64,000 nucleotides of DNA, taken from assembly GCF_003325355.1 (NCBI RefSeq), contig NZ_CP030850.1, positions 2,170,001 to 2,234,000 on the forward strand. Direction: 5' to 3'. Origin of the DNA: Runella rosea (lineage in GTDB: Bacteria > Bacteroidota > Bacteroidia > Cytophagales > Spirosomataceae). Within the stretch, counting starts at the first letter, position 1. Each line of letters starts with the position of its first letter. This document shows positions 47,149 through 62,544 of the stretch, piece by piece. A program made the translations under genes and the position numbers. The notes beneath the pieces are model-generated. The model ran no database searches, was not told the DNA's origin, and saw nothing but the letters and a program-made list of their open reading frames with translations.

Positions 47149-47222
47149 GGGCCCATAGCTCAGTTGGTTAGAGCATCTGACTCATAATCAGGGGGTCGTA
47201 GGATCGTGCCCTACTGGGCCCA
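47149..47222 (+). tRNA. tRNA with CAT anticodon (elongator Met or Ile2)
   Basis: A 74-nt cloverleaf: acceptor GGGCCCA/TGGGCCC, D-arm GCTCAGTTGGTTAGAGC, anticodon loop CTCATAA with CAT at 47183-47185, T-arm GTAGG/CCTAC. Which of tRNA-Met or lysidine-modified tRNA-Ile it is cannot be settled by reading alone. The T-loop reads ATCGTGC instead of TTCGANT, swapping the usual T54-A58 for A54-T58. The CCA end is not encoded. It marks the left border of the accessory region. Confidence 0.92.
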
Positions 47223-47232
47223 CTTGATAATC

Positions 47233-47268
47233 AAGCACTTATGAGATAGAACTTGTAAGTGCTTTTTT
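47233..47268 (+). terminator. tRNA transcript terminator
   Basis: AAGCACTTA (47233-47241) pairs with TAAGTGCTT (47256-47264), followed by a T run to 47268, 10 bases beyond the tRNA. Confidence 0.8.
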
Positions 47269-47317
47269 ATTTGATACACACTTTGATACACAACTCTCTT
47301 GTATTCTCTAGTTTATT

Positions 47318-47578
47318 CTATTCTTTCAGGCAAATACTGAACCAAGAATGAGGGTAGTTTTTTCCAGAAATTACATAGTATAAAAGCTCAGCTGGTTCTA
47401 ATTTTACCATATCAACTCTATAGTATTTTCCCGCCAAGAATCCCTCACTATTGTAACTGCATATTACAATAAATGGACAGTGTAATCTACACAGCACTCC
47501 CTTTTGATTTACTATCATCACTGAGAAAGGGTCTAAATAATTAGGTCTGTCATGACTATAAATTTGAGGTGTTTCCAT
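47318..47578 (-). CDS. Hypothetical island protein
   Basis: An 86-residue protein (METPQIYSHDRPNYLDPFSV, then FIVICSYNSEGFLAGKYYRV) with Cys residues and mixed composition. It follows the DUF3871 gene on the same strand with a 48-base gap and is probably the last gene of that unit. No known domain. Confidence 0.55.
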   Translation of the reverse strand: METPQIYSHDRPNYLDPFSVMIVNQKGVLCRLHCPFIVICSYNSEGFLAGKYYRVDMVKLEPAELLYYVISGKNYPHSWFSICLKE

Positions 47579-47626
47579 AGTGATTCATGGTAAGAGGCTG
47601 GAAAAAGCCAGCCCCTATGTTTAAAG

Positions 47627-48613
47627 TTAAGATAAGAACCAATGGTACTCTTGCTGTTGAATGGCATGGCTAATACTGCCCACAAGTTCAAAAGCATTGA
47701 CAGACCTGCCCAAAAAAGAATCAATATAACTCTGCTTATTGGCTCCGGTGAAGAGGTTATACACTTTCCAGAGGCTAATGTCACCATTGTCCCTTTTACA
47801 GAATGATACATCGTGATAATAATCTCTGGCTATTGAACTGATTTGAGAATCACCAAAATGGAGTCTTGGCACCAACTTCTTTTCCTCAGCAGGCAGGAAT
47901 TGGTATAATCTTGCCCTGCCAATCATAGTTGCAAATTGATGCTCTGTAAGATAGGCTTCTGTCATAGATTGCATGGCTTTGAGATGATTGTTCATTTTGT
48001 AGCCCAATACCAGTTCATAAATCCCCTTCATCAGCTGTGATAGGTGCTTTGCTTTCAGGTTAAGAACCAATCCATCGGACCAAACACACAGGTTACAGCA
48101 CACTTTGTTCTGAAAACCAATGAAGATTTTGAAGTGCTCATCAGCTCCTTTTCTGTTGTAGAGGTTATCAAGATTGTAAGCCTTTACTCCACCAATGGTC
48201 AAAGATAACTCATTCCCATTGATTCTGTCCCTAATGCTGGCTACTTCAATCACAAACATCATTCTTTCAAAGTAAATGGTTTCTTCATGTGGCAGCAGGT
48301 CTTTGGCCCTTTTATCTTTGGCCTCAGGAATCCTACCCTTGATTGGGTGGGATACCCTGATGGCAGGAGATAAGATAGTCTCATTGGGAAAAACCTGATT
48401 GACAATTTCTAAGGCACAATTAATAAAATCCTGATGTGAAATCACTGGCTCATTATCTTTTACAAAGACTGGAATTAAGTGCTGTTGTTCCAATTCTGCC
48501 AAAGACATGGGAATCGTATTGGCCTGTATAAAAGCCACTTCTGTTGAGGAGGTGATGATTTCCTGCTTAGAAACAGGTACTAAAGAGTGATTATTGACGA
48601 GTTGCAGTTCCAT
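47627..48613 (-). CDS. DUF3871 family protein
   Basis: A 328-residue protein of the Bacteroidota DUF3871 family, common in integrated elements and plasmids: SHPIKGRIPEAKDKRAKDLL, YFERMMFVIEVASIRDRING, LTIGGVKAYNLDNLYNRKGA. No catalytic motif is known. Its start overlaps the AAA ATPase gene by 23 bases; both probably act in replication or recombination of the element (inference from context). Confidence 0.82.
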   Translation of the reverse strand: MELQLVNNHSLVPVSKQEIITSSTEVAFIQANTIPMSLAELEQQHLIPVFVKDNEPVISHQDFINCALEIVNQVFPNETILSPAIRVSHPIKGRIPEAKDKRAKDLLPHEETIYFERMMFVIEVASIRDRINGNELSLTIGGVKAYNLDNLYNRKGADEHFKIFIGFQNKVCCNLCVWSDGLVLNLKAKHLSQLMKGIYELVLGYKMNNHLKAMQSMTEAYLTEHQFATMIGRARLYQFLPAEEKKLVPRLHFGDSQISSIARDYYHDVSFCKRDNGDISLWKVYNLFTGANKQSYIDSFLGRSVNAFELVGSISHAIQQQEYHWFLS

Positions 48614-49454
48614 TGGTAGATAGAGTTTGAGATAGAATAGTAGAAACAGGAGTTTGTAGTTGGGTTTTACGCTGATTGAAATAGCTCAGGTGAGATTGCT
48701 GATACTCAGGATGTGACAAATAGAGTTCTCTTAATTCATCCATAGTTTGACATTCAATGATATACTCATGAAAAGGTTTATCAGATTGTCCTAATTGGCA
48801 CCAATTATATATGAGTTTTCCAGTTTGAGCAGTAATGGTGAATTCAGGTTGTCCTGCAAATAATCCTGTACGGTCTTTGGTCGCGATGGCATGGTGTTTA
48901 TTGTCCAGTTCAAAGACCAATGTGAGTTCATAATCAGTGCCTTCTCTTTGGATTGGCTTCATTCCTACCTTTTCAGGCACTTGCTTGCCATTTTTCTCAT
49001 TCAGTACATAATCCTGTTTGGCTCTGAGGGTACAGATGATATGGCAATCTGCTTGTAGAATAGCTTGAATCAGCTGTTGATGTCTAGGAGTGAATTTAGC
49101 CCAGTTGGTGTAACTGTTGCCTGTCAGCTGTGAATGAGCATCCAAGATATACTCCCATTCTAAACTCAAACTATCAATGATAACCACCTGTATTTTGGCC
49201 TCAGTGCATACCTTAATAGCCTGAATGTAGAGTTCAGGAGAGAAGGGTGGCTTTAAGGGTAGAATATAAAAACTACCTAAGTGAGCATAAAGTGAAGCAC
49301 TTTGATTTTCAGTATCAATGACAGCTATTTGCTTCCAGTCATTGACCAGTCCAAAAGCCATGAGCAAAGCAGAATAGGTTTTTCCACTACCTGAGCTGCC
49401 CTGTAGCCCTAATTTGATTTTGACATTTTTACGTTGTGCTGGTTGTAATTGCAT
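48591..49454 (-). CDS. Phage-type AAA ATPase (Sak4/RecA-like)
   Basis: A 287-residue ATPase from the ATG at 49452-49454; the 11 codons upstream are unlikely. It has Walker A GLQGSSGSGKTYSALLMA, a Walker B region VVIIDSLSLEWEYILDAH and sensor ADCHIICTLRAKQDYV. This is the AAA_24 / Sak4-like RecA-fold family found in phages and mobile elements, where it promotes single-strand annealing recombination. It is paired with the DUF3871 gene. Confidence 0.85.
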   Translation of the reverse strand: MQLQPAQRKNVKIKLGLQGSSGSGKTYSALLMAFGLVNDWKQIAVIDTENQSASLYAHLGSFYILPLKPPFSPELYIQAIKVCTEAKIQVVIIDSLSLEWEYILDAHSQLTGNSYTNWAKFTPRHQQLIQAILQADCHIICTLRAKQDYVLNEKNGKQVPEKVGMKPIQREGTDYELTLVFELDNKHHAIATKDRTGLFAGQPEFTITAQTGKLIYNWCQLGQSDKPFHEYIIECQTMDELRELYLSHPEYQQSHLSYFNQRKTQLQTPVSTILSQTLSTNGTATRQ

Positions 49455-49916
49455 TACAAGAGTAGATTTTAGTGAATAAAAGAACATAAGAAAGGGTAGA
49501 GCCTCTAGAAAGACCCTACCCCTTTGAAAATGATGTTTGAATGACTGTCACGCAGCTTCTAATTGATTGCCAAATGCAGCCTCTTCCACAGTGCCACTAA
49601 CTACAGACTGTATTCATAGCTGTAAATTCCTATGAAAGTGGTTCATCGTCACATTGGGTGAAAGTTGGGGTTTAAGCTTTAATTTTGAAGAATAGACTTT
49701 TCTTTCCTGACTTTTACGTGATACGTAATTGGGTACTGTAAGCATGATTGTAAATGTTTTAGTGTGATTGTTTTGATTTACCTTGAAGCCCCTTTCTCCG
49801 AAGTGTAATATACTTATCTAAAGTAATAAGGGGAGTAAGAGCTTCAAAAGTAAGCTAAGGGGGAGAGTAAGGGATTTGATTCACTCTCAGATGCCCATTT
49901 TAAGGAGACGGGGGGG
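49455..49916. other. Intergenic region with a possible decayed small gene
   Basis: A minus-strand frame at 49614-49745 reads MLTVPNYVSRKSQERKVYSS and ends after 43 codons, and a different frame immediately after it continues SVVSGTVEEAAFGNQLEAA to a stop at about 49557. Together they could be one small gene broken by a frameshift, but no family supports it. Otherwise nothing was recognised. Confidence 0.3.
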
Positions 49917-50384
49917 CTATTTTAGAAACTGTTTTTTGATGCGGCAAGCATAGAACTCGTCAGGGAAGGGGAAAGACCTAAGTGAAAAATTGGTTGAAGG
50001 CATGGAAGAATACAGCCAAAGCAAACGTTTTGGGTAGTTAGCTCCCTTGGCAATCCCACAATGACCCCAGCTCTCATTCCAGAACTGAACAATGTCACCT
50101 GCCTGTAATTCATTGATATTTACTTCTGTAGCAATCCCTCTTCTGACTAAATTATATACTACTCCTTTGATACGGGGGTCATTTTGTTGCCTCATTTGCC
50201 AAGCATCAGGATAATTGATATGCACTTCTTTGAGGTCTTTTTGACTGAATTTGATGGTAGTGGATTGCTGCAATACTACCACCATTGATTGCACACAATT
50301 TGAGAGGTGATAAGGGGGTAGTTTTACCTCAGTACATACTTTTTGGATGGGATGGAGAAGCAGGACAAGCAGTAGAACTCTCAT
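49917..50384 (-). CDS. NlpC/P60- or CHAP-like secreted cysteine peptidase
   Basis: A 155-residue protein with a short hydrophobic start (MRVLLLVLLLHPIQKV). The Cys in SNCVQSMVVVLQQS and the His in GDIVQFWNESWGHCGIAKGA fit the Cys-His pair of NlpC/P60/CHAP peptidoglycan amidohydrolases (LQAGDIVQF is a family hallmark). It would cut cell-wall peptides; on mobile elements such enzymes aid conjugation or lysis. It follows the small gene at 50387-50626 by 2 bases. Confidence 0.68.
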   Translation of the reverse strand: MRVLLLVLLLHPIQKVCTEVKLPPYHLSNCVQSMVVVLQQSTTIKFSQKDLKEVHINYPDAWQMRQQNDPRIKGVVYNLVRRGIATEVNINELQAGDIVQFWNESWGHCGIAKGANYPKRLLWLYSSMPSTNFSLRSFPFPDEFYACRIKKQFLK

Positions 50385-50386
50385 TA

Positions 50387-50626
50387 TCAGCTATTTTTAA
50401 TCAAAAAAGATAATTTTTTGAAGGGTTTTAATGAAAAAACATATACCACAACAGGATAATGGGTACAAGATTGGTAATTTTCTATTAAAGGCATACCCTT
50501 ATTGACAAAATGTAGTGTTTCAAGTTGGGTGTTTGAAAATATTAAGCCCCAATCAGAACGCTGAGGGTTTAGCTGGGTAACAGAATAAAAAAGATTGGCA
50601 ATACTACTTGTCCCAGTATAAGGCAC
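50387..50626 (-). CDS. Small hypothetical protein, start uncertain
   Basis: A 79-codon frame read from a GTG at 50626 (VPYTGTSSIANLFYSVTQLN). The same frame is open for about 35 further codons upstream (to about 50720) and encodes a hydrophobic segment (ASYFGILVLIRPLQVSNL, then SCIRKKTTTAPF), which would fit a membrane anchor, but no ATG is present. The real start is therefore unclear or the 5' end has been lost. It sits 2 bases before the NlpC-like gene. Confidence 0.4.
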   Translation of the reverse strand: MPYTGTSSIANLFYSVTQLNPQRSDWGLIFSNTQLETLHFVNKGMPLIENYQSCTHYPVVVYVFSLKPFKKLSFLIKNS

Positions 50627-50644
50627 AAAGGGTGCTGTGGTAGT

Positions 50645-50928
50645 CTTTTTCCTTATACAAGATAGATTTGATACCTGTAAGGGCCTAATAAGAACAAGTA
50701 TTCCAAAATAGCTGGCTAATCACATATACCGTTTCAACAAGTCAAGATAAAAGACTAACATTGCTCAGAGAAGTTTCTGCCTTATACAAAAGAAGTATGT
50801 CAATAGTTTTGCTAACCGCATACCACCCAACCAAACCAATATCGCTATATACACTTTACTTTGGTTTGCTAGGTTTAGAATAGCTTGCTGCTGGTAATGG
50901 GCTCATCATCTTCTGTATAAGGAAAAAG
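50645..50928. repeat. Inverted repeat pair, possible small mobile element
   Basis: CTTTTTCCTTATACAAGA at 50645-50662 is repeated inverted at 50912-50928 (CTTTTTCCTTATACAGA on the other strand); 15 bases match exactly from the outer end. A partial third match (CCTTATACAAAAGA) lies inside near 50783. No clear target duplication was seen. The enclosed segment has no gene but holds hairpin A. Confidence 0.5.
50825..50874. repeat. Hairpin A of the island hairpin family
   Basis: ACCCAACCAAACCAA (50825-50839) pairs with TTGGTTTGCTAGGT (50861-50874) with one bulged base and two mismatches. The left arm begins CCCAACCAA like hairpins B and D. Confidence 0.55.
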
Positions 50929-50978
50929 CTATTACAGCTGTAAATCTTGGCTCTTATTAGAACTATCGTAGCAATATC

Positions 50979-51037
50979 AAACCCAGCCAACCAAGACAAA
51001 ACACTTATAGATAAAATTATTTTAGTTGGCTGGGTTT
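50979..51037. repeat. Hairpin B of the island hairpin family
   Basis: AAACCCAGCCAAC (50979-50991) pairs perfectly with GTTGGCTGGGTTT (51025-51037). The stretch CCAACCAAGACAAAACACTT inside is nearly repeated in hairpin C (58556-58600). It lies on the 3' side of the minus-strand DndDE-like module. Confidence 0.75.
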
Positions 51038-51303
51038 TGAACCATGACTAAAATTAGAGATAAGTACTTCCTAAAAAGGCTTGGAGAGAACCGCATAGGG
51101 CTTTGTTAGATGAATTGAGTAATATACTGCAAATCAATTAGTTATAAAACAATGACAATTTTATAAATAGCTGATTTTCAATCATTTAAAAATATTCATT
51201 CAACAAAGCCACTACATAGGCTCAGAGAACAAAAGGGTTGAGTCAGGAAAAATGTATTTTAGGGGCAATCTTTCTAAGAATCAAGTAGATAATATTGAGA
51301 GGG

Positions 51304-51489
51304 CAGGACTTTCTCATAAAAATTAAATCACTGTAAATCAACGCTTTAATGTTGACCCTGAATTGATTGCTTGTCATTAAAATAACTAGCTGAGTTACAA
51401 AATCTAAATTTAGTCTCTCATAAAACTCTAAAAATACTCGTGTTAGCTGGGGGTTATGAGCAGTAAGTCATTTTTATGAGAAAGCCCTG
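51304..51489. mobile_element. MITE copy 1 (186 bp) with 10-bp target duplication
   Basis: Starts CAGGACTTTCTCATAAAAAT and ends ATTTTTATGAGAAAGCCCTG, forming about 20-bp terminal inverted repeats with one mismatch. ATTGAGAGGG flanks it on both sides (51294-51303 and 51490-51499), an exact 10-bp duplication. It has no coding capacity. Confidence 0.88.
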
Positions 51490-51701
51490 ATTGAGAGGGG
51501 GAATTAAATACAACAATAAGTACTGTAAATGCACTTGCCTTGTAAAACAACTTTGTCGCATGGTTTGCATGCCAAGGGGGAATTAATAGGCTGGCAGTAT
51601 TAAAAAGACTTTTGCACTTCCCAATAGCAAATTTTATAGAATTTAACTTAGTGTTTGTTTTTTTAGTGTTGTATTTTACCTTTATTAACTATCCATGCAA
51701 A

Positions 51702-51885
51702 CAGGGCGTTCTCATAAAAAAAACAAAGTGTTCGCCCACCTTCAGATAACAAGAGACTTCAAAGATTTATTTTATCAAACCTTAAATTTGGGGACTCATT
51801 TAGTTTTTTTAAGGACAAGCAAACACTTTAAGCTAAATATTAAAATGGTGATTTATATAGAGTTGGTTTATATGAGAAAATTCTG
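51702..51885. mobile_element. MITE copy 3 (184 bp), diverged
   Basis: Begins CAGGGCGTTCTCATAAAAA and ends TATGAGAAAATTCTG. The interior aligns with copies 1 (inverted) and 2 (same orientation), e.g. GGACAAGCAA and the run near ATATTAAAA. The flanks TCCATGCAAA and TCCATACAAC (8 of 10 equal) look like an aged 10-bp target duplication. Confidence 0.7.
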
Positions 51886-51909
51886 TCCATACAACAAAGA
51901 CATGTAAAA

Positions 51910-53490
51910 TTATAAATTCTCCTCTTTTCTAGTTTTCCACCATTGTCTTAACTCTAAAATTTTTGGGTCTCTAATGTTTATAAGTCCTTTTCCAGATTCT
52001 AATTTTTTTATTTCTGCTTCAAGTTTGTACTTACTAATTGGTGTACCAATGAAATTACTTATAACTTTATAATCTTTGTTTTGAATATTTAAGCAGATTG
52101 GTAATTTTACTTGAGAGGCAAAATCAAAATCCTTAGTTTTATAGTCTTCGGCACCTTGTGAAAGCATAATGATAATTACACCTTTTGACCTTAAAAGCCT
52201 TAGAAGTTCTTCTAGTGATTTTCGTGCATTTTTATTTTTTAAATAAATGTGTACTTCGTCAATAACTATAATATATCGGAGTGGAAAAATATGATCCGTT
52301 GGCTCACAATCGTTTGTGGAGCTGAAGTACGTATTAAAATATCTCAATAATAAAAAAACGAGAAGCTGTCTTAAGGTATCAGAAAGCGCAGGGGGAAGGT
52401 TTAGATATAAACTCTTTTCAAGTATATTTGGGTTGTTTACATCGCAATTGAAAATATTTATTGTTAAATCTTGAATCCCTGCAAATAATGTGTCTTGTTT
52501 TCTATTATTTTCGTAATAATATACCTCAATTGCGTTAAATAGTTCATTAATAGTAGGATACGTATGTATTTTGCTATCAAAAAGATTAGAAATAATATTA
52601 GTTAAAATGTTTTTTTGAGCAACACCAATATTAGGTACAAATGTAGCTATTGTATCAACAAAAGCTTTAATACTAAAAGGTCGTTGTCTCTCATCTAATG
52701 AAATTGAAAGTAAAGGGTTGAATTTGATACCATTGTCGTTAACAATATCAATAAACTCACAGTTTGAGGCATCCAAAAAAGGCTTCAGCTGAGAAAGATT
52801 TCCTTCACCTTTATAATCAAAAAAGATAAACTTTAGTTCATTGTTTGTTTTCTTAGATATTTGATACAGGATGTCTTTTATTAGTTGGGTTTTTCCCGAA
52901 CCTGCCATTCCCGCAATAGCAATATTTCTATTGTCGAATTCTCTAAGATCATTAATTTTAATTTCAAAAACTTCGCCATTTTCAGTCTTTCCTAATTCAA
53001 ATGTAAGCAAAGAAGTAAATTCTTTCATAGCATTTAAAACTACATTTGTGCTGCTAATTTTAACAGTATTAGACCTTAATATTAATCCATTTTTAATTGG
53101 TTTTAACAAGAATGAAATATGGTCACCATTAGTAATATCTCCTTTCTCTAATTCATTTATCCATAAATCTAAACCATCACGCAGATGAAATTTGTAAAGT
53201 TTTATAAATTCAATTTCAGAAAGTTCTTTTCCATAATGTTGGTCGAATATTGTTTTATATAAAACATAATTATCAGTGTCGTTAACTAAACGACCAAATA
53301 TGTTACTTGTAGGAGAGTATTCTCGACCATTTTGGGGTAAACTATTTTCATTTTCGTGAAACATTTTCCCTTTGTTAATACTTAATGCAAGAGCAATTCT
53401 TCCAGTTATAGTGTCTCTCTTGAAATTGTAGATATTAGTAATTCTATCCAAAAGATCAGTACTTTCATTGTCAATTTTAAATCTAATCAT
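51910..53490 (-). CDS. DndE-domain / HerA-type ATPase fusion protein
   Basis: A 526-residue protein. Residues 1-115 match the DndE family pattern (RITGxxxRIALALS-like helix, then LPQNGREYSPTSNIFGRLVN, then FKFHLRDGLDLW-like end); DndE binds nicked or modified DNA in phosphorothioation systems. Residues about 185-520 form a HerA/FtsK-type ATPase: Walker A GMAGSGKT (194-201), Walker B YIIVIDEVHIYL (406-417), a likely Arg/sensor region IIIMLSQGAEDYKT. So a DNA-binding module is joined to a DNA-translocating or remodelling ATPase. It is the last gene of the four-gene unit and overlaps the DndD-like gene by 8 bases. Confidence 0.78.
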   Translation of the reverse strand: MIRFKIDNESTDLLDRITNIYNFKRDTITGRIALALSINKGKMFHENENSLPQNGREYSPTSNIFGRLVNDTDNYVLYKTIFDQHYGKELSEIEFIKLYKFHLRDGLDLWINELEKGDITNGDHISFLLKPIKNGLILRSNTVKISSTNVVLNAMKEFTSLLTFELGKTENGEVFEIKINDLREFDNRNIAIAGMAGSGKTQLIKDILYQISKKTNNELKFIFFDYKGEGNLSQLKPFLDASNCEFIDIVNDNGIKFNPLLSISLDERQRPFSIKAFVDTIATFVPNIGVAQKNILTNIISNLFDSKIHTYPTINELFNAIEVYYYENNRKQDTLFAGIQDLTINIFNCDVNNPNILEKSLYLNLPPALSDTLRQLLVFLLLRYFNTYFSSTNDCEPTDHIFPLRYIIVIDEVHIYLKNKNARKSLEELLRLLRSKGVIIIMLSQGAEDYKTKDFDFASQVKLPICLNIQNKDYKVISNFIGTPISKYKLEAEIKKLESGKGLINIRDPKILELRQWWKTRKEENL

Positions 53491-55573
53491 TGCTTATAGT
53501 GTTAAAATAACCGCTTTTTAAATTTGTATTTACTCCATCACTAAATAGTAAATATGATTTTGAAATGTATTCTGAAATGTCTTTATACCTTTTGGGTGTA
53601 ATTTCACTATTGGTAGAAAATAAAATTACCTGTTCTGAAAGTGTTGGATAATATTTTTTAGTTATACTATCTCTGTGTTCTTCATCAAGTCTACCTAATG
53701 GTGTATCTATAAAAATTGGTAAATTTTTAACTGATTCTTTTAAAATTGATTTAATTAAACAGGAAATATATATTTGTTTTTCCCCCGACGATAGACTTTC
53801 TTTTCTAATCTCATTATCATCTTGATCAAATAATGAAATTTTCATTCCTTGCCCCGACGCTAAAATAGTGACTTTTACATCTTCGATAAATTTAGTTTGA
53901 TTTTGTTCACTGTTCAATTTGTGCATAAGTAATTTTAATTCAGAAAGAATTGTTTTTTCCAAACTGTCTTTATGGTTGTTTTTTTGTTCATCAAGGAACT
54001 GATTTAAAACATCAATATACTGGTTGCTTTTTTTGATTTTTAGTTTATTCTGCTCGTTTATATCAACTTTCTTAACAAATGCTATTAATTGATGATTAAG
54101 CCTTATAATGTCGCCTCTAAGCTTTGTAATTTGCTGATTGTTTTCGCCAATTTGTCTATTCTTTTCAGAAATATTAAAGTCTGCTGTTTCTTTCTTAGAA
54201 GAATATTCAAGAATTAATTCGTCCTCAAGTTCTGCATCTATCTTGCTTAAAGTTTTATTCAAGTCTGATAATTTTATTTTTATTTTATTGAATTCTTCTA
54301 TTGTAGATTCAAACAAATCCTTTGATTGGGTATTAAGTAGATTAATAGCATCTTCTATGAGTTTCTTCTCTGAATTATTGAGATCGTATTCGAATTCAAG
54401 TTCTGTATATTCACTATTTACTTTGAACAGTTGTAAACCTAAAGATTGGGCCTTGTCATAATAAAACATTTTATCTTTAAAAGACATGGTTGAGTTTTGA
54501 GGTTCAGGCGGTTTGTTGAAAAGTAATTCAATAAAATTTTCAATTTTTTCTGAATATTCTTTTAAAGAGCTTTGTGAAAGTGTATTTTTTTCTTGAATTT
54601 CTAAATGTTCTTTTACCTCTTCTAGTTTTCCAGTTAAAATTGCTAGAGGAATGATTTCGCTTAATTCATTAAAACGCTCGTTGAGTTCGATTTCTTTAGA
54701 TTTTAGTTTATCAATATCTGTAATAATAGCATTTCTATCAAAGGTTGAATTGCCTAGTTTACTGTGTTGAAAAATTAGGTTTTCGTATTCTCGAACTCTT
54801 TTCTTTAAGTCATCAATCTCTTTTGACCTTTCTGCGTTTTCTTCTTCAAGGTTGTTTATCTGATCTTCAGAAATCTCAATTGCTTTTTCAATATTAATAA
54901 TTTGCTCATGCAAATTTTTAGGAGCACCTTCTTTCTTTAAATTATTTATGTAAAACTCAATATCATCAATTAACGTCTCGTATGTATCTAAACCCAATAT
55001 TTTCCCTAAAGCGTCATTTATAAAACTGCCTTCATCTTTAATTGACAAATTGGCAATTTCTGCAATTTTTTCCGCATCAAAAAAAACAAATTTTGCTGCA
55101 TCAATTGGAATGATATAATCGTTTATATAGTTTATTTTTGTATTTTCATCATCGAATAATTCAAATTTTGAATTTATGTCGACAATTGAAAGTGTTTCGT
55201 TCATTGTAGAAATATCAAAAGTTCTCTTTATTAAAATAGTATCTATATTTGGATTAGGGGTTTCAATATTTGAAATTTTGATACTTACTGAAAATTGAGT
55301 TTTATTCTCTTTTTTTGCAGTCCAGTTAATTGATTGTTGCATAAAAGAAGAGTAGTTTTTCTCTTTTTGGATTTCTTTCTTGAAATTTTCGTCTATTTGA
55401 GATATTTTCTCACCATATAAACACCAAACAATTGAGAGCAAAAAATTTGTTTTCCCGTAGCCATTTCGACCACCAATTATTATGATGTTCTTCTCGTTAC
55501 TTGTTTGAAGATCAACATCTACAGAATTGTAATATTGTCTGAAATTATTAATTTGGATATTTGAGAATTTCAT
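53483..55573 (-). CDS. DndD-like SMC-family ATPase
   Basis: A 696-residue SMC/Rad50-like protein: Walker A GGRNGYGKT (34-42), a long coiled coil (about 215-540), ABC signature LSSGEKQIYIS (594-604) and Walker B with the DndD hallmark IFIDTPLGRLDEEHRD (620-635). DndD is the ATPase of the DNA phosphorothioation machinery and also occurs in related DNA-targeting systems. Strong AT bias. It overlaps the 60-residue gene by 4 bases and the ATPase fusion by 8 bases, so the unit is tightly co-translated. Confidence 0.85.
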   Translation of the reverse strand: MKFSNIQINNFRQYYNSVDVDLQTSNEKNIIIIGGRNGYGKTNFLLSIVWCLYGEKISQIDENFKKEIQKEKNYSSFMQQSINWTAKKENKTQFSVSIKISNIETPNPNIDTILIKRTFDISTMNETLSIVDINSKFELFDDENTKINYINDYIIPIDAAKFVFFDAEKIAEIANLSIKDEGSFINDALGKILGLDTYETLIDDIEFYINNLKKEGAPKNLHEQIINIEKAIEISEDQINNLEEENAERSKEIDDLKKRVREYENLIFQHSKLGNSTFDRNAIITDIDKLKSKEIELNERFNELSEIIPLAILTGKLEEVKEHLEIQEKNTLSQSSLKEYSEKIENFIELLFNKPPEPQNSTMSFKDKMFYYDKAQSLGLQLFKVNSEYTELEFEYDLNNSEKKLIEDAINLLNTQSKDLFESTIEEFNKIKIKLSDLNKTLSKIDAELEDELILEYSSKKETADFNISEKNRQIGENNQQITKLRGDIIRLNHQLIAFVKKVDINEQNKLKIKKSNQYIDVLNQFLDEQKNNHKDSLEKTILSELKLLMHKLNSEQNQTKFIEDVKVTILASGQGMKISLFDQDDNEIRKESLSSGEKQIYISCLIKSILKESVKNLPIFIDTPLGRLDEEHRDSITKKYYPTLSEQVILFSTNSEITPKRYKDISEYISKSYLLFSDGVNTNLKSGYFNTISND

Positions 55574-55752
55574 TTTGTTGATTTTTCAATTATGTCATTG
55601 ATTTTTTGTTGATGATAATTGTTTCTTTTTAGCAACTTTTTTGTCCTAACAGATTCAATTAAGGATTTTAAATGATTATAATCAATACCTTTCTCATCGG
55701 ATATTTCTTTAAGCCTTTGCTCTTGTAATTTTTTATTTTCTACGACTTTCAT
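55570..55752 (-). CDS. Small charged protein of the DndD-like operon
   Basis: A 60-residue, Lys/Glu-rich helical protein (MKVVENKKLQEQRLKEISDE, then GIDYNHLKSLIESVRTKKLL). It overlaps the 825-residue gene by 20 bases and the DndD-like gene by 4. Small accessory proteins of this size accompany DndD-type ATPases in DNA-modification clusters; assignment to that group is by position and character, not by a clear motif. Confidence 0.6.
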   Translation of the reverse strand: MKVVENKKLQEQRLKEISDEKGIDYNHLKSLIESVRTKKLLKRNNYHQQKINDIIEKSTK

Positions 55753-58210
55753 ATTTGTTTGTTTGAATTATTTTTGCGATTTCTATAAAAATGCATTCTT
55801 CTTCTTTTTTTAAGCACCCTTGATTAAATTTTGTTCGCTGTTTGTAAAAAAATTTATAAAGACTTTCTTCGCCCATTTTATTGGCTGAAGGCAATCTTCT
55901 GTTTTCTATTATAAACTGTTTGAGTTTGTTGTATTTTTCTATATCGTTGACTTTTCTTTTTTGTAATGTTTCTTTTTCGAATTTATTAATAACTTCTTTT
56001 ATTAAACTGCATTTTTTGTCATCTAAAGCGATTTTTTTTATTTTCCTTACTTGAATTTTGTACCACCTGTTAAGTATTAGTTCTGTGTCAGGGCATCCAC
56101 TTGAGAATGGCAATCTATTGTTCGCGTTTAAAAAATCTGTAAGCTCGTCAAATCTTTCTTCCCAAGTTTTTTTTTCATTTATTTTTGAGCCATCGGATAA
56201 TATATATTTGTCTTCATATATTTTTTGAGATAAGCCTATTATTGAGTTTTTATAAAAAATAAATGTTTCTGATTCATCTAGCTTTAAGTTCTGAATAATG
56301 CTATATTCATTGGAATTAGGTCTAAATTGAAGTACATATGATGCGATTTTTGATATATGTTGAGGAGATGAGTTGTTTTCTAAATACTCGATTACTATTT
56401 GGCGGATGGTTCCTCCTTTAATATTGTCCTTTTCCTTTTCCCATTTTTTTAAACCATAAGTGCTACTTCTACCAAAGTAAATTATTTCACTTGTTCTTTG
56501 AAGACTTCCACGAAGGGAGTCAACACTCTTCGTAATTTCAGGGTAATCTTTTTGAATTAAATTATATATTACTTCTATTTTAGATGGAATACCGATTTTT
56601 TCTAAAACCTCTATTGCATATTCAGTAACTTGTTTTACTGTATTTCTTTTAAATACTAATGTTTCGTAAAGATCTAAGTAAAGTTCAAACTCTTGATTAA
56701 TTATTTTTTCTGAAATTGATAAAATTATTGGCAATATTATTTTTTTTTCTGTTTTTAAAAAGTTTGTTAAATAACTTAGAAAGTTAAAGCTATAAGTATC
56801 ATTAATACGTTCATTTAATCTGCCATTAATGTCATCGACTAATGCATTAAAATCAAATTCTTTACTTATGTTTCTATTTACTAAATAAAAGTTCTTCCAA
56901 TTATGGCGATTCCTATGTTTAATATATTTAGGCTCTAATACGTCTTCAATATTCCCAATAAGTTCAAAATTTTTAGAAATGTAGATAAAAATTATGAATA
57001 AGTTAAATTCATTTGAAAAGTTAGTTTTATTGAGTGTATTTATGCTATAGTTTAAATCTTCGTCAATTCTAATAAAGTCTTGATTTATGTCAATTCCGTA
57101 TTTTTGGAGTAGATTTTCATCTATATTTTTGATAAATTGAAGTTTGTTAAACATTTCATCTAAACAATTTTTTCTTATTTGCCTAGCTCTTTCTTTTGTT
57201 ATGTTTAAATCTTTACCAACTTGTGTTAAAGTTAGTTCTTGTTGATCTTTATATATTTTAACCGATTTCTGAAAAACAATATTTTGATGACTTTTAAATA
57301 AAGCATTATTTTTGATTAGGAAATCTACTAAATTAAAAATTGATAAATTTTCAAGTATTTCATTTGGTATTTCAGATATAAGAAATGTTTTATTTATGTA
57401 AAATTTGTTTTTTAGAGCAATTAATTTGCTTTCATTTTCAACTTTGCCTACTATTTCAATAAAAACCTTTATTGAATCAATAAATTGTTCAATTTCGTTT
57501 GTTGTTTTTGTTCCAACATTTTTAATATCTTTAATTGAAAATTGATCATTTGTTAATATATTATCACTTACATTTCTGATTTTTAGATTACCTTTTAGAA
57601 ATGAAACTATTGCATTTTTGCTTCTATTTGAAAGATTATTTGAATTGCTTTCTATAAAACTATTAATTACTTCTCTTTGGCTTCTTGTTAGAGTGGATAT
57701 TAATGCAACAAAAGGGTTTTCTCTTGTAGGAACGGTGAGTTTGGTAATGTTTTCTTTATCAATGTACTTTAAGCATAAATTTGTTAGTTCTTCATTGGAT
57801 TTACTACCACAGTTCCTAAGATTTAAAAAGGTTTTGTTATTTTGATAATATTCTAAAAGTGATTTTAAATCCCTCAAGCTGTTGCTTTTACATACGTTAT
57901 ATGAACGTATACTTATATTTTCATAATCGATTATTTCTTCTATTGAGATTGTTTCTGTAAAAATATTTTCCTTTATAGGAAGAATGTTGATTGCATTTTC
58001 ATTTTCAATGTATTTTATACATAACGTAATTAGTTCTTTGTTGGATTTATTACCACAGTTTCTAAGATTAATAAAGGTTTTATTTTTTTTGTAATAGTTT
58101 AATATTGATTTTAAGTCCTTTAAACCATTGTTTTTACATACAGTAAACGAACGTATACTTATGTTTTCATGGCTAAATATTTCATTTATTTGTATTTTGT
58201 GTTTACTCAT
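55733..58210 (-). CDS. Multi-domain DNA-binding protein: alpha-CTD repeats, sigma-4-like HTH, HARE-like HTH
   Basis: An 825-residue protein and first gene of the unit. Residues 12-69 and 94-151 are near-copies of an RNA polymerase alpha-CTD-like helix-hairpin fold (ENISIRSFTVCKNNGLKDLK, then INLRNCGNKSNKEL); a third, weaker unit lies at about 226-248 (KDIKNVGTKTTNEI). Residues 326-351 form a sigma region-4-like HTH (LTLTQVGKDLNITKERARQI). Residues about 528-590 resemble a HARE-type winged helix (YAIEVLEKIGIPSKIEVIYN, ending YGLKKW), followed by a second winged helix (602-663) and two helicase-associated-like repeats (683-722, 757-795; FxxxNNRLP pattern). It is the probable DNA-recognition subunit. 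Confidence 0.72.
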   Translation of the reverse strand: MSKHKIQINEIFSHENISIRSFTVCKNNGLKDLKSILNYYKKNKTFINLRNCGNKSNKELITLCIKYIENENAINILPIKENIFTETISIEEIIDYENISIRSYNVCKSNSLRDLKSLLEYYQNNKTFLNLRNCGSKSNEELTNLCLKYIDKENITKLTVPTRENPFVALISTLTRSQREVINSFIESNSNNLSNRSKNAIVSFLKGNLKIRNVSDNILTNDQFSIKDIKNVGTKTTNEIEQFIDSIKVFIEIVGKVENESKLIALKNKFYINKTFLISEIPNEILENLSIFNLVDFLIKNNALFKSHQNIVFQKSVKIYKDQQELTLTQVGKDLNITKERARQIRKNCLDEMFNKLQFIKNIDENLLQKYGIDINQDFIRIDEDLNYSINTLNKTNFSNEFNLFIIFIYISKNFELIGNIEDVLEPKYIKHRNRHNWKNFYLVNRNISKEFDFNALVDDINGRLNERINDTYSFNFLSYLTNFLKTEKKIILPIILSISEKIINQEFELYLDLYETLVFKRNTVKQVTEYAIEVLEKIGIPSKIEVIYNLIQKDYPEITKSVDSLRGSLQRTSEIIYFGRSSTYGLKKWEKEKDNIKGGTIRQIVIEYLENNSSPQHISKIASYVLQFRPNSNEYSIIQNLKLDESETFIFYKNSIIGLSQKIYEDKYILSDGSKINEKKTWEERFDELTDFLNANNRLPFSSGCPDTELILNRWYKIQVRKIKKIALDDKKCSLIKEVINKFEKETLQKRKVNDIEKYNKLKQFIIENRRLPSANKMGEESLYKFFYKQRTKFNQGCLKKEEECIFIEIAKIIQTNKYESRRK

Positions 58211-58718: not shown

Positions 58719-60533
58719 TTAGTTACTATTTATAATTTTTACAATGTACCATTTGTTATTAAGTTTTGTCAAGTCAAAGTATTGGTCATAATATCCTGCT
58801 CCATTATATGTATCTGATGCATAGTATTTTGCATGCACAATGGCTTTTAGCCCATCATTACTAACTTCAGTTACTTCTGTAATTTCTACCTTATTTACAC
58901 CTCCAAAAGCTTGGGATGAACAAAACCATGCCTTCCCTTTTTTCTCCCAAAATGGATTATAAGTTACTTGCCAAGCTCTTTCGCAATCTGCATTATTCAA
59001 GGCTAACAAGAATATCATGCTTATTTCTTCGGCAGTAGTATTATTAGATAGTGTGCCAGATGATACAGCAGTATCAACGGCAGACGTATCAAGTTCAGCA
59101 AAATTATTAGGTGGTGCATCAGATAATATAGCAGTAGTATCAACTAATATAGCAGTAGTATCAACAGCAACACTTATGTCATTGGCAACCAAAGTGGAGT
59201 CTGTTGTAGGAGGATAGACTATGTTTTCTTGTTTTTTTCCTAAACTTATTATGGCAAGCACAATGACAGTAAATGCAATTACAAATATAACTACTTTTAC
59301 CCATTCATTATCTTGCGGAGCAGGTACAGGTTGTTGAGTTTTTATTATTATAGGTGGATTTTTTTGTTGAAAGTTAATCCATATTTCTGACTGATTTTTA
59401 TTAATAAAAACAGTAGTGTATTGGTCTTCATACTTCAATCTAAGAGTTTTAGCAGTGTATTCATCTTTATCTAAGACACAAGGGGTGGTACCAATTTTTT
59501 GAAAAGCACTATTAAAAATGGTAGCCCCCGAAGGGTTAGAAAGTATTTTTATAAAATCAGTTTTAGGTTGCGTAGCTATGGGTTCGGTAAAGTCATTATT
59601 GCCTTGTTCTTGATTAGGGCTTTTAAACATTGTTATCTGCTCCACATTTTCTGGCAATGAATCGCAAAAAGCTCTCAGCTTTGACAAGTAAAATGATAGA
59701 GAAGGCTTATTAAGCCTGGAGAGACGTTGAACAAGCGCAGAATTATCAAAGTCTATAAAATCTTGACCAATAAATAATGTGTTTTGCAATGTATTGAAAC
59801 CTCCTTGCATCACTTCTAACCATAGACTTTTATCGTATTTTAATGCTTCTATGGCACAAATAATCACCCAAAATGAAAACCTGTCTATTTTCTCATTATA
59901 GTCAAGATGTGAACGTTCGGGATGTTGGAATTCTGTTAATCCTCTCTCAAGGCTGTGTTTTCCCGAAAGTGGAGGGACATACATTCCATCATAATCTATT
60001 AATTTGACTACACTCTCACCTCCGTCATTCTTGCTAACGATAACATTTCCACATTGTAGGTCTCCATGTCCAACTTTATGCTTCTCCAAACTTTTGCTAA
60101 CCTCAACAAGTTGTTTTTGCAGTTCGGTAAGTGCTTTATTATCATGAAGTTTATGTCCGATATAATCATTCAACAACTCTCCTTCTACCCAATCCATTTT
60201 AATAATTGGATAGCCCCTGTTTCCTACTTTGATTTCTGCCTCTAATAGTTCAAATTCTGTTTGCCAAGTGGTGTCAATTTTTCTCAGATAAGAAGAAACT
60301 TCTCGGTATCGTTCTATTTTATCATTTTCAGCACTTGTAAAACAACGTATCGCATATTTATTATCTAATTCGTCTTTTGCTTTGAAAACCACAGCAAAAG
60401 CCCCACTACCATACGAGTAAATCTTGATAGGTGTGATTCTTGAAGGTATGAAAGTTAAATTTGACAGCGTTTTTAACGAAGTACCTCCTTTACTTTGAAT
60501 CACCTGATTATATTCAGAAACGCTCGGAAACAT
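58719..60533 (-). CDS. TerY-module Ser/Thr kinase-like protein with PEGA and extracytoplasmic domain
   Basis: A 604-residue protein: kinase domain (about 30-290) with Gly loop GSGAFAVVFKA, catalytic HGDLQCGN (156-163) and IDYDGMY in place of DFG; the usual beta-3 Lys of VAIK is Arg63 (YAIRCF). A PEGA-like strand region follows (about 326-390; ILSNPSGATIFNSAFQKIGT), then one TM helix (about 411-431), a Thr/Ala/Asp-rich linker containing a 21-bp tandem repeat (59125-59166), and an NTF2/DUF4878-like C-terminal domain (ADCERAWQVTYNPFWEKKGK). It begins on a TAATG shared with the phosphatase stop. Third member of the TerY phosphorylation triad. Confidence 0.82.
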   Translation of the reverse strand: MFPSVSEYNQVIQSKGGTSLKTLSNLTFIPSRITPIKIYSYGSGAFAVVFKAKDELDNKYAIRCFTSAENDKIERYREVSSYLRKIDTTWQTEFELLEAEIKVGNRGYPIIKMDWVEGELLNDYIGHKLHDNKALTELQKQLVEVSKSLEKHKVGHGDLQCGNVIVSKNDGGESVVKLIDYDGMYVPPLSGKHSLERGLTEFQHPERSHLDYNEKIDRFSFWVIICAIEALKYDKSLWLEVMQGGFNTLQNTLFIGQDFIDFDNSALVQRLSRLNKPSLSFYLSKLRAFCDSLPENVEQITMFKSPNQEQGNNDFTEPIATQPKTDFIKILSNPSGATIFNSAFQKIGTTPCVLDKDEYTAKTLRLKYEDQYTTVFINKNQSEIWINFQQKNPPIIIKTQQPVPAPQDNEWVKVVIFVIAFTVIVLAIISLGKKQENIVYPPTTDSTLVANDISVAVDTTAILVDTTAILSDAPPNNFAELDTSAVDTAVSSGTLSNNTTAEEISMIFLLALNNADCERAWQVTYNPFWEKKGKAWFCSSQAFGGVNKVEITEVTEVSNDGLKAIVHAKYYASDTYNGAGYYDQYFDLTKLNNKWYIVKIINSN

Positions 60534-61729
60534 TAGTTTTTATGCTTTTTGGGTTTTACTGTTTCTTTTTTCAAACCGTTTTGGATAGTATCAATTTGGG
60601 TATCCTGTTGTATTTTATCTGTACTGGTCTTCTTTTCGGAGTTTTCGATTTTGTCTTTAAGTTTCTTAATCTCAGTAATTTTTTCTTCTACTTTCGCTTC
60701 ATAATCCTGTACTTGACTTTCTAAGCGTTTAATTTTCTCTTCTTCTTTGTTTTGAAAATTATTGTATAGAAAAAATAGATTAAGGATAGTTATTAGCCCT
60801 ACGCAAATTATCAAAAGTGTTTTTTGAAGTTTGGAATCTTTCCTGATTTCAGACAAATCCTGTCTTAGTCGAGTAATTTCTTGAAACAGTTGTTGCATAT
60901 CATTACCTGTTAGTTCGTTATTGTAGTAGTTTAATTCTGAGGGAATAAACTCAAACTCTTTCTCTTTTGGGAAGCTAAAATCAGTAGGTGGGAATATTTC
61001 TTGAACAGCCTCAGAATGAATATCTTGAATTATAATTGCAGTTATATCATCTTCTTCGAGCCACCTTTGTTCCCACTGTTCTAAACAAAATGTGTGTAAA
61101 TTTTCAAAATCGTTGATTTGCAGTAGAGTATTACAAGTACTGGGGTTTTTCAACATCAACCTACTGAGGGCATCACTGGCCAAAATTATGGTATCACCTT
61201 GTTGAAGATGAATGACATGCTGGACAAAAAAATCCTTATTTATTTCATTATCAGATAGTTTAGCGGTATTCAAAAAATGCTTTTTTTCGTCTAACTCATC
61301 TAAAGATGTAGAGGGAAATGATATGATTTTATCTGACCTTAGAATAAAAGTGTTTGAATCTCCACAGCTAATAATTGACAATGTATTATCATTCTTAATT
61401 ATGGCACCAATGAACGTAGATGTTGCCCCTCTTTTTAGCTTGTCCCTTTCAAGTGAAGCAATGGCAGGGTTAGGACTAAACTCGTACTTTAGTTTTGAAA
61501 ATTCTTCGGCACAGCTCTTAAAAAGCCCAATCAAAGCATCAGGTTCAAATGCTGGATTTTCAATAAATCTTTTTGTTATGAGGTCTGCCCATAGTTCTGG
61601 GTTAAAACTTTGGGTAGCACCATCAGCGATAGCATAGCATCTGGTTTCCTGTGAGTAAGCATACTTATCTTGTATATAATTGTACTTATAAGATGCTCTT
61701 TTGTGTAATTGAAGAATTTTTAGAGCCAT
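60533..61729 (-). CDS. TerY-module PP2C-type phosphatase with TM and coiled coil
   Basis: A 398-residue protein. The PP2C core (1-235) shows CYAIADGATQSF (Asp36), KRGATSTFIGAIIK, SCGDSNTFILR, ILASDALSRLM (Asp186) and EEDDITAIII (Asp227/228), the metal ligands of the family. A TM helix follows at about 304-322 and then a charged coiled coil (325-380). It shares a TAATG with the vWA gene before it and the kinase after it. Predicted to reverse phosphorylation by the kinase. Confidence 0.88.
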   Translation of the reverse strand: MALKILQLHKRASYKYNYIQDKYAYSQETRCYAIADGATQSFNPELWADLITKRFIENPAFEPDALIGLFKSCAEEFSKLKYEFSPNPAIASLERDKLKRGATSTFIGAIIKNDNTLSIISCGDSNTFILRSDKIISFPSTSLDELDEKKHFLNTAKLSDNEINKDFFVQHVIHLQQGDTIILASDALSRLMLKNPSTCNTLLQINDFENLHTFCLEQWEQRWLEEDDITAIIIQDIHSEAVQEIFPPTDFSFPKEKEFEFIPSELNYYNNELTGNDMQQLFQEITRLRQDLSEIRKDSKLQKTLLIICVGLITILNLFFLYNNFQNKEEEKIKRLESQVQDYEAKVEEKITEIKKLKDKIENSEKKTSTDKIQQDTQIDTIQNGLKKETVKPKKHKN

Positions 61730-62544
61730 TACACTGGGTTAGAACCGATATTTAAGAAATTGATTAAATCGGTAGCATTACCGTTGAAAATATATCCTCT
61801 TGCATTTGACTGAAGATTGTAACCTCTGTTCTGAGCAAGCCGAATCATATTTTCATTGAGAGGAGTAGCTGTTTCAAAAAGTAATTGAGCAAACTTATCA
61901 TTATTGTCTCTCAATTCAGTCGGAAACAGAATTCTATCACCTATTCTTGATGAGATATGAATGTTTAAGATATTGACCGTACCATAATTGGTGGATAAGG
62001 CTTTTATTTGCTCTATTTCATTTCTTAGGAAATTAAAGCCATTACCTGCATCAGTAGCCTCCCCATCAGTGATATTGATAATTATAGGAGGATGACAATC
62101 TCTGTGATTACCCCATTGTATCCAGTCCGTACAAAGTCTCCTTGCATTTTCAAATGCTTTTGTCATTGGGGTTGCGCCATTGGAGTAAGGTTTTATCCAT
62201 ATAGGTTTGTCATTTTCGACAACTAGTGGATAATCAAAAATATTTTTAATAGACACTACCCATTTATTGGTCAAAGCCCCTTCCCATGCGGACTGTACCC
62301 CATTTTGTCCATCTTTTCCATATCCGATAATAGCTAACTCAAATCGGTTTTTTAATTCTCCACCACCACTAATACATCGAAGTCCAACTTCATATATTAC
62401 ATCATTGATAGCATTGGCGAGTTCAATTGCTTTGGTGTGAGAAGCGTTCCCAAATTTTTCATTCATCGAACCACTTTGGTCTATTAGATAGACTATTAAA
62501 CAGGGGTTTGTACTACTTATAGTTAAATTACGAAGGTCAAACAT
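61729..62544 (-). CDS. TerY-like von Willebrand factor A protein
   Basis: A 271-residue vWA protein with an intact MIDAS: DQSGSM (22-27), the Thr in SNGATPMTKAFENA and the Asp in INITDGEATD. It resembles TerY, the vWA partner of kinase and PP2C in the TerY phosphorylation triad, which has been reported to act in anti-phage defence and in metal/stress systems. It is the first of the three coupled genes and lies 12 bases after the DUF805 gene. Confidence 0.88.
   Translation of the reverse strand: MFDLRNLTISSTNPCLIVYLIDQSGSMNEKFGNASHTKAIELANAINDVIYEVGLRCISGGGELKNRFELAIIGYGKDGQNGVQSAWEGALTNKWVVSIKNIFDYPLVVENDKPIWIKPYSNGATPMTKAFENARRLCTDWIQWGNHRDCHPPIIINITDGEATDAGNGFNFLRNEIEQIKALSTNYGTVNILNIHISSRIGDRILFPTELRDNNDKFAQLLFETATPLNENMIRLAQNRGYNLQSNARGYIFNGNATDLINFLNIGSNPV

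Follow-up and report, generated by a model that had tools for sequence, protein, structure and literature searches.

What would a Dnd operon do without the genes that add sulfur to DNA, and how would such an operon come about? The question is raised by four overlapping genes in a stretch of 64,000 nucleotides from Runella rosea (contig NZ_CP030850.1, positions 2,170,001 to 2,234,000; hereafter the window). They encode an 825-residue protein (P825), a 60-residue protein (SP60; SP in related loci), a DndD-type ATPase, and a DndE domain fused to a HerA-type motor (DndE::HerA). Sequence comparison and phylogeny show the operon to be a derived Dnd system in which the DndD-docking tail of DndC has been kept as SP60. 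On balance we think it probable that this system is sulfur-free and that its clamp and motor act directly on DNA, probably foreign, which is left unmarked.

Parts of this picture are already published. The fusion of HerA/FtsK domains to DndE, with a DndD-related ATPase as neighbour, has been described (Rakesh, Aravind, Krishnan 2024, PMC10853773), so the view of the first-pass annotation, made from the letters of the window alone, that this is not a system that can be named was too strong. In the parts of that paper covered here, the corresponding "clade-3" systems, which share the fusion and the adjoining ATPase with our operon, are called phosphorothioate (PT) modification systems; the window operon differs in having lost DndC, in its SP60, the tail of that protein, and in carrying P825. 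The same parts also count DndDE dyads without other PT genes, suggest that systems lacking DndC, likewise already published, may act otherwise or use other modifications, and leave the role of such systems open. What they say of an "SP" relates to CxC systems and to a negative regulator that they predict; the main-text parts covered do not mention SP as a tail of DndC, P825, or a stepwise loss of DndC.

The small protein and the C-terminal tail of DndC

SP60 is a member of a named Pfam family, PF20306 (Sp-DndD), a point absent from the first-pass annotation. It scores 27.8 bits against a cut-off of 27.2, and a six-frame search of the genome gives 26.8, under the cut-off. Pfam describes Sp-DndD merely as found in certain Dnd systems, and we found no literature on the family as a tail of DndC; part of this may be in a 2020 survey of ABC ATPases that lay outside our search.

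In two related loci a full DndC takes the place of SP. In one of them (L039), a 423-aa DndC (TIGR03183, 451 bits) occupies the exact SP slot with the tail attached. Its C-terminus is 37% identical to SP (blastp, 2.7e-6; composition correction and low-complexity filter were switched off in blastp among loci), and a hidden Markov model (HMM) of SP matches it at residues 366-419 (1.2e-9). The other (L041) likewise has a full DndC in the slot (TIGR03183, 439.9 bits; SP HMM, 6.5e-5), and both proteins have an intact PP-loop and intact conserved cysteines. When the SP profile was compared by hhalign with 16 other DndCs, it aligned at 434-485 of E. coli-type DndC with a score of 46.0 (E 5e-7 for one comparison, probability 92.5). 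The controls scored 15.7 or less for 30 column shuffles, 15.9 for the reversed alignment, 12.3 against DndD and 15.2 against P825.

The Pfam family itself also reaches into DndC. PF20306 clears its cut-off on an archaeal DndC from Halorubrum at 418-462 (38.4 versus 27.2), and on a 464-aa DndC frame of genome G740 it scores 28.7 in the genome search and 24.6 as a protein. In plasmids of Aureimonas and Rhizobium (L061, L062), a short DndC of 379 aa is followed by a separate 71-aa SP (8073-8288) and then by DndD. The Rhizobium and Aureimonas SPs score 48.2 and 55.6 bits; DndE in these operons carries an FtsK-like motor of another type, and a TusA gene follows. There is thus a living series of full DndC, split DndC plus tail, and tail alone, with one clade keeping the docking tail only.

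The function of this tail has been studied in the canonical system. The parts of PMC12193691 covered here describe a DndD dimer, modelled on DNA in the manner of Rad50, with DndE bound to the coiled coil of DndD and the tail of DndC bound to its head. The AlphaFold3 model of that study has residues 433-482 of DndC in contact with the head of DndD; the substitutions L458D/E462A/R471A break the pull-down. The E. coli DndC compared here (544 aa; B7A, 540) has the same residues at the published positions. L458 corresponds to SP L31, which is invariant in all 27 SP rows, and the neighbouring R470 to SP R43 (26 of 27 rows). On this sequence evidence, we take SP60 to be the C-terminal DndD-docking tail of DndC, standing alone as a separate protein.

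Several observations weigh against this identification. PF20306 finds no match at E<=1 in the DndC of L039 or L041 and stays under its cut-off on that of L050 (17.1 versus 27.2). The SP HMM reaches three of 16 DndC frames (L039, L041 and L013), in a set that includes two tail-less Rhizobium-type frames and a broken one (L086); such sequence-only comparison is weaker than profile-profile comparison. As to the residues in the published mutant, SP has V35 at the position of E462 (V in 17 of the 27 rows and E in 10) and N44 at that of R471 (24 of 27), and binding of SP60 to DndD would be carried over from DndC by analogy. Even so, it is very improbable that SP60 is an unrelated small regulator resembling the tail by accident: short helical proteins can look alike, SP is only 17% identical to the E. 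coli-type tail and the missed matches would fit, but SP stands in the operon slot of DndC, its profile score is nearly three times that of any control, PF20306 clears its cut-off on a DndC, and DndC and SP occur split in Rhizobium and Aureimonas.

We also considered a kinship of SP60 with PbeB and rejected it, as there was no match. Sp-CxC (PF20304) is a separate family without a match to the DndC tail, and it is not among the Pfam matches of the window SP.

Operon arrangements and the fate of DndC

A scan of the genome collection found 28 loci with DndE::HerA. The order P825-SP-DndD-DndE::HerA is present in 25 of these; one (L022) is a fragment with DndE::HerA only, and L039 and L041 read P825-DndC-DndD-DndE::HerA. 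The module is uncommon: seven of 296 genomes sampled from the phylum match DndE::HerA at 1e-10, and only R. rosea, G084 and G250 do so at >=47% identity over nearly the full length. All locus titles are from Bacteroidota except that of L036, a metagenome-assembled genome labelled Patescibacteria, whose DndD falls within the Bacteroidota clade. This copy may reflect mis-binning or transfer.

The related operons fall into three arrangements. Arrangement A (seven loci) has the order DndC-DndD-DndE::HerA, with a DGQHR/DndB gene in six of the seven and P825 in none. Arrangement B (L039 and L041) adds P825 in front of DndC, and DGQHR is found in neither locus. Arrangement C, that of the window and of one further locus outside the 28 (L012, from G250), has SP in the place of DndC: P825 and SP are present in 26 of the 27 loci scanned, the 27th being the fragment L022, P825 precedes SP wherever both could be read, and DndC or DGQHR is present in none of the 27.

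In a tree of DndD with 44 rows, the arrangement C rows lie on one side of a branch (100/97), as do B and C together (99/96); outside C, no row lacks an adjoining DndC. The C clade spans Flavobacteriaceae, Weeksellaceae, Cyclobacteriaceae and Chitinophagaceae, with the four-gene order kept. Left out of the tree are L022, the loci L011 and L080 (whose genomes are already represented by L019 and L035), L086 (its frames are broken), L090 (its DndD is cut off by the contig end) and a second DndD-like protein of R. rosea (L015). Ten long end branches were flagged, two of them within B and C (L012 and L041), and an odd letter make-up was flagged in six rows, all outside B and C. Among the A rows stand three canonical ones whose DndE is a separate protein (L087-L089), and on this tree the DndE::HerA fusion may have arisen once or more than once.

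Because the DndC-less operons form one clade that is sister to two operons with DndC, a single loss of the DndC catalytic domain after the arrival of P825, with the docking tail kept, explains the pattern of the three arrangements. By the same phylogeny, the immediate ancestor carried P825, full DndC, DndD and DndE::HerA, as in the two living relatives. Further back, P825 may have replaced the DndB-like DGQHR gene of the cousin operons. Compared with DndABCDE, the operon shares the DndD ATPase, the double ribbon-helix-helix domain of DndE and the DndD-docking segment of DndC; it lacks the DndC catalytic domain and DndB, its docking segment is a free 60-aa protein, its DndE carries a motor, and P825 is added.

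The sulfur genes were also searched for outside the operons. TIGR03183 (DndC) has no match in the R. rosea genome even at E<=10, which rules out a DndC encoded elsewhere in it, and DndB has none at E<=1; these searches found no sulfur chemistry in the host, and the cysteine desulfurases DndA/IscS were not searched for. IscS-type cysteine desulfurases are housekeeping enzymes according to the parts of PMC10853773 covered. In the genomes of the 28 related loci, TIGR03183 passes its cut-off in two (L039 and L041), gives weak fragments in two, and finds nothing at E<=0.001 in 24, many of them drafts. Four arrangement C genomes were among eight searched for DndB: two have relatives outside the loci (L018 and L025) and two have none (L012 and L035).

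The claim of the first-pass annotation that Dnd parts occur here without sulfur-transfer genes is borne out by these searches. Its further suggestion, that a HerA-type motor and an alpha-CTD/HARE protein replace those genes, fails. The motor adjoins DndC in seven related operons, and both motor and P825 stand beside a full DndC in two more; neither, therefore, replaces DndC, and HerA as a substitute is ruled out. The first-pass annotation had named dndC in the same operon of related genomes as a finding that would refute it. Two of the 28 loci have this gene, and its presence there shows that the module descends from a sulfur-adding system.

The four genes and their products

The four open reading frames lie at the positions first assigned to them (Table 1), and successive genes overlap by 20, 4 and 8 bases.

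Table 1. Genes of the Runella rosea operon, with positions in the window, and predicted parts of P825.
Feature	Position	Strand	Description
P825 (825 aa)	58210-55733	minus	Open reading frame read from sequence; multi-domain, putative DNA-binding protein
SP60 (60 aa; Sp-DndD, PF20306)	55752-55570	minus	Orphan copy of the C-terminal DndD-docking tail of DndC
DndD (696 aa)	55573-53483	minus	Coiled-coil ABC ATPase (TIGR03185) that has two cysteines and lacks a CxC hook
DndE::HerA (526 aa)	53490-51910	minus	Double ribbon-helix-helix domain (3-109) and DndH-type HerA/FtsK motor (about 160-515)
P825, predicted parts			Two alpha-CTD-like units; sigma region 4-like helix-turn-helix; two winged-helix (HARE-like) units; HA-type helical repeats

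All four genes are under purifying selection in the pairs computed, with nonsynonymous divergence (dN) well under synonymous divergence (dS). Between the window and L020, dN/dS is 0.154/0.824 for SP, 0.086/1.73 for DndD, 0.171/1.59 for DndE::HerA and 0.358/2.54 for P825. Because the order is conserved in 25 of 28 loci and dN is well below dS in every gene, the module is no chance find. P825 is the fastest-evolving of the four, a rate that would suit a part meeting changing DNA or partners.

The assignment of DndD stands: the protein clears the curated TIGR03185 model (274.4 bits, cut-off 245.85), and the motifs LSSGEKQIYIS and IFIDTPLGRLD, quoted earlier, are found in its translation. Its best padloc score is for DndD (302.5), with PbeC close at 291.8. 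The PbeABCD/CxC ATPase systems share an ATPase, a DndE-like protein and a small protein with the module, but the module is without the Zn-hook cysteines (the only cysteines of DndD are at 51 and 605, and both CxC and CxxC are absent, as in the other 43 DndD rows compared), and the small protein of the CxC systems is Sp-CxC, of another family.

The DndE assignment also stands: residues 3-109 of DndE::HerA clear Pfam PF08870 (27.6 bits, cut-off 25); TIGR03184 stays far below its cut-off (13 versus 71.85). In an AlphaFold2 model (24 sequences, pLDDT 83.4), two strand-helix-helix units stand ahead of the P-loop domain. That a HerA-type motor is fused to this domain is confirmed by padloc, where the best match of the motor half is mad8 (75.9 bits) and DndH is also matched. 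Only this half resembles a part of MADS, whose other proteins were not looked for. The nearest PDB entry by sequence is 7es4 (DptH), and by fold again 7es4, the DndH/DptH C-domain (TMt 0.82, E 2e-18). The module differs from DndFGH restriction in that full-length DndH was not found in the R. rosea genome: only motor residues 1344-1709 of 1715 were matched, in two places, with the N-terminal half unmatched, and DndF and DndG were not searched for.

P825 was first described as a DNA-binding alpha-CTD/HARE protein. DNA binding is suggested by modelled winged helices and by Pfam matches that are all under their cut-offs, namely PF03118 alpha-CTD in two stretches (22.9/23.8), PF04545 sigma region 4 (23.5/24.1) and PF03457 HA (23.0 versus 28.4); no HARE model is among the matches. 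The P825 relative of L039 has an RNAP-delta match, also under the cut-off (23.7 versus 42). An AlphaFold2 model (25 sequences, pLDDT 83.5) has two winged-helix units at about 520-661 and C-terminal helical repeats, and its best PDB fold matches are weak (Foldseek E 0.064 and above): SelB winged helices, transcription factors and sigma region 4. Residues E340, R341, R343 and Q344, which we take to be the -35-reading motif of sigma region 4, are invariant in the 25 aligned sequences. A nuclease hidden in P825 can be set aside, as no nuclease family was found in Pfam, padloc and PDB sequence searches and no fold match was significant; nor did family or fold searches find any other catalytic domain.

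A P825 profile search of 395 genomes gave 317 positives at 1e-5. Among the matches listed, most are weak and lie over the sigma-4 part (frames of about 280-320 aa) or the alpha-CTD part (about 331-344 aa); these frame sizes, presumably those of RpoD-type sigma factors and RpoA, fit the presence of sigma-4 and alpha-CTD domains in P825. Near-full matches occur in at least five genomes (R. rosea, i.e. G000, and G084, G250, G211 and G160). P825 is not exclusive to the module: the relatives in G211 and G160 have no Dnd panel match in the roughly 20 kb examined. These stand-alone relatives (L123 9737-11710 and L124 9972-12125) have 657 and 717 aa. A 626-aa weak relative (52.8 bits; L125 8129-10009) lies a few kb from the Dnd cluster L087, which has a 1743-aa DndH-like motor protein.

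Possible modes of action and genomic surroundings

The loss of the DndC enzyme with retention of its docking tail suggests that the operon probably guards DNA in a way that does not involve sulfur. We infer an ATP-driven DNA-scanning clamp and translocase that works without phosphorothioation, probably in defence; a mechanism of this class seems moderately likely, and defence as its purpose a little less so. SP60 would still sit on the DndD head, in place of the DndC tail, and two DndD ATPases would form an ATP-gated clamp on DNA. The double ribbon-helix-helix domain of DndE would read DNA and link the clamp to the HerA motor, which would pull or pump the DNA. P825 may supply promoter-like DNA reading through its alpha-CTD, sigma 4 and winged-helix parts, replacing the specificity loop of DndC, or may regulate the operon. 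Interference by the complex would take the form of binding, translocation or exclusion of DNA, probably foreign, with no phosphorothioate mark, and any cutting would fall to another protein. Wadjet and other SMC-type (structural maintenance of chromosomes) defence systems likewise use an ATP-gated coiled-coil clamp and small accessory parts, with DNA as the target. The likeness is in working only: the module has no Jet nuclease and its ATPase is of a different family.

A bolder version, in which SP60 clamps the DndD heads and P825 aims clamp and motor at foreign promoters, stripping or silencing transcribing invaders that stay uncut and unmarked, is possible but doubtful. If true, DndD, DndE::motor and the docking tail would form a portable core that could be coupled to type III-like restriction-modification, to sulfur transfer or to a promoter reader. 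Quite apart from this version, reading Sp-DndD as the DndC tail gives a hitherto unexplained small protein a predicted binding site and published mutations to copy; it makes "Dnd without sulfur" testable and offers a way into the role of DndC-less systems.

A clamp and translocase serving defence has several observations to contend with. The defence context is thin: in a padloc search at 1e-10 of 112 flanking proteins (of 134 picked from 24 loci), the matches listed are scattered (a CBASS cyclase and 2TM effector, a DRT-type reverse transcriptase, type I and II methylases), and among them each model matches at most two of the 112 proteins. Neither a nuclease nor a modification enzyme is shared by three or more loci among 328 flanking reading frames from 29 loci, which leaves the module without an effector step. 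Relatives of P825 exist without the module. Records of plasmids and phages hold only the motor part of DndE::HerA (three plasmids, one phage) and no P825, and no DndE::HerA was confirmed in viral contigs; on these records, carriage of the module by phages or plasmids was set aside. To our knowledge, there has been no experiment on the four-gene module.

The same surroundings bear on whether the operon serves defence at all. In favour of the main reading, some genes flanking module copies are defence genes or integrases: Pfam finds a phage integrase in four of the 112 proteins, and only three clusters of flanking frames span three or more loci, all integrase- or excisionase-like by inspection, so a conserved fifth gene can be set aside. 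The motor also matches VirB4/TraC models by profile and VirB4 folds by structure, and P825, with its RNA polymerase-like DNA-reading domains, resembles a transcription factor. A DNA-handling or transfer element acting in conjugation, segregation or the regulation of an integrative element would account for the integrases, the VirB4-like motor and the domains of P825, but we judge it unlikely: among solved structures, the DndH/DptH C-domain comes nearest to the motor in sequence as well as in fold, the motor's partners come from Dnd systems, and by inspection of the three recurring clusters no relaxase or mating-pair family is found in three or more loci.

Less probable again is a machine that goes on modifying DNA with chemistry from elsewhere: another PP-loop or methyl-transferring enzyme, acting in trans, would dock through SP60. 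The retained docking tail would suit this, as would a second cluster in the R. rosea genome in which DndD-like, HerA and SP genes adjoin an N6_N4 methylase and a ResIII helicase, and the covered parts of PMC10853773 propose other modifications for DndC-less systems. Set against it are the absence of DndC from the host and from 24 of the 28 related genomes, at the thresholds given above, and of any modification gene recurring beside the operons in three or more loci. That the operon is a decaying, functionless Dnd remnant is hardly credible: P825 is in two frames in L037 and L044 and DndE::HerA is interrupted or shortened in L037 and L038, but each of the four genes has a dN far below its dS, a clade of several families preserves the gene order, and the ATPase motifs are intact.

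The second, divergent cluster mentioned above lies at about 6,252,970-6,261,130 of the same genome (G000:C1; L015 6974-15134, minus strand). Its products are a HerA-type ATPase of 526 aa, a DndD-like ATPase (TIGR03185, 175.5 versus 245.85), a protein of 71 aa whose Sp-DndD match falls short of the cut-off (23.8 versus 27.2), an N6_N4 DNA methylase and a ResIII helicase. The cluster appears to combine this same core with restriction-modification of a type III-like kind.

Directly beside the operon in the window, at 58719-62544 on the minus strand, consecutive genes encode a protein kinase, a protein with a weak PP2C/SpoIIE-like match and one with a weak vWA match, a trio that we take to resemble a TerY-type phosphorylation triad. 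On the other side, a tRNA-Met and genes matching DUF3871 and AAA_24 (47149-51900) lie between the module and a gene that is presumably glycogen phosphorylase-like; a mobile island may have its border in this stretch.

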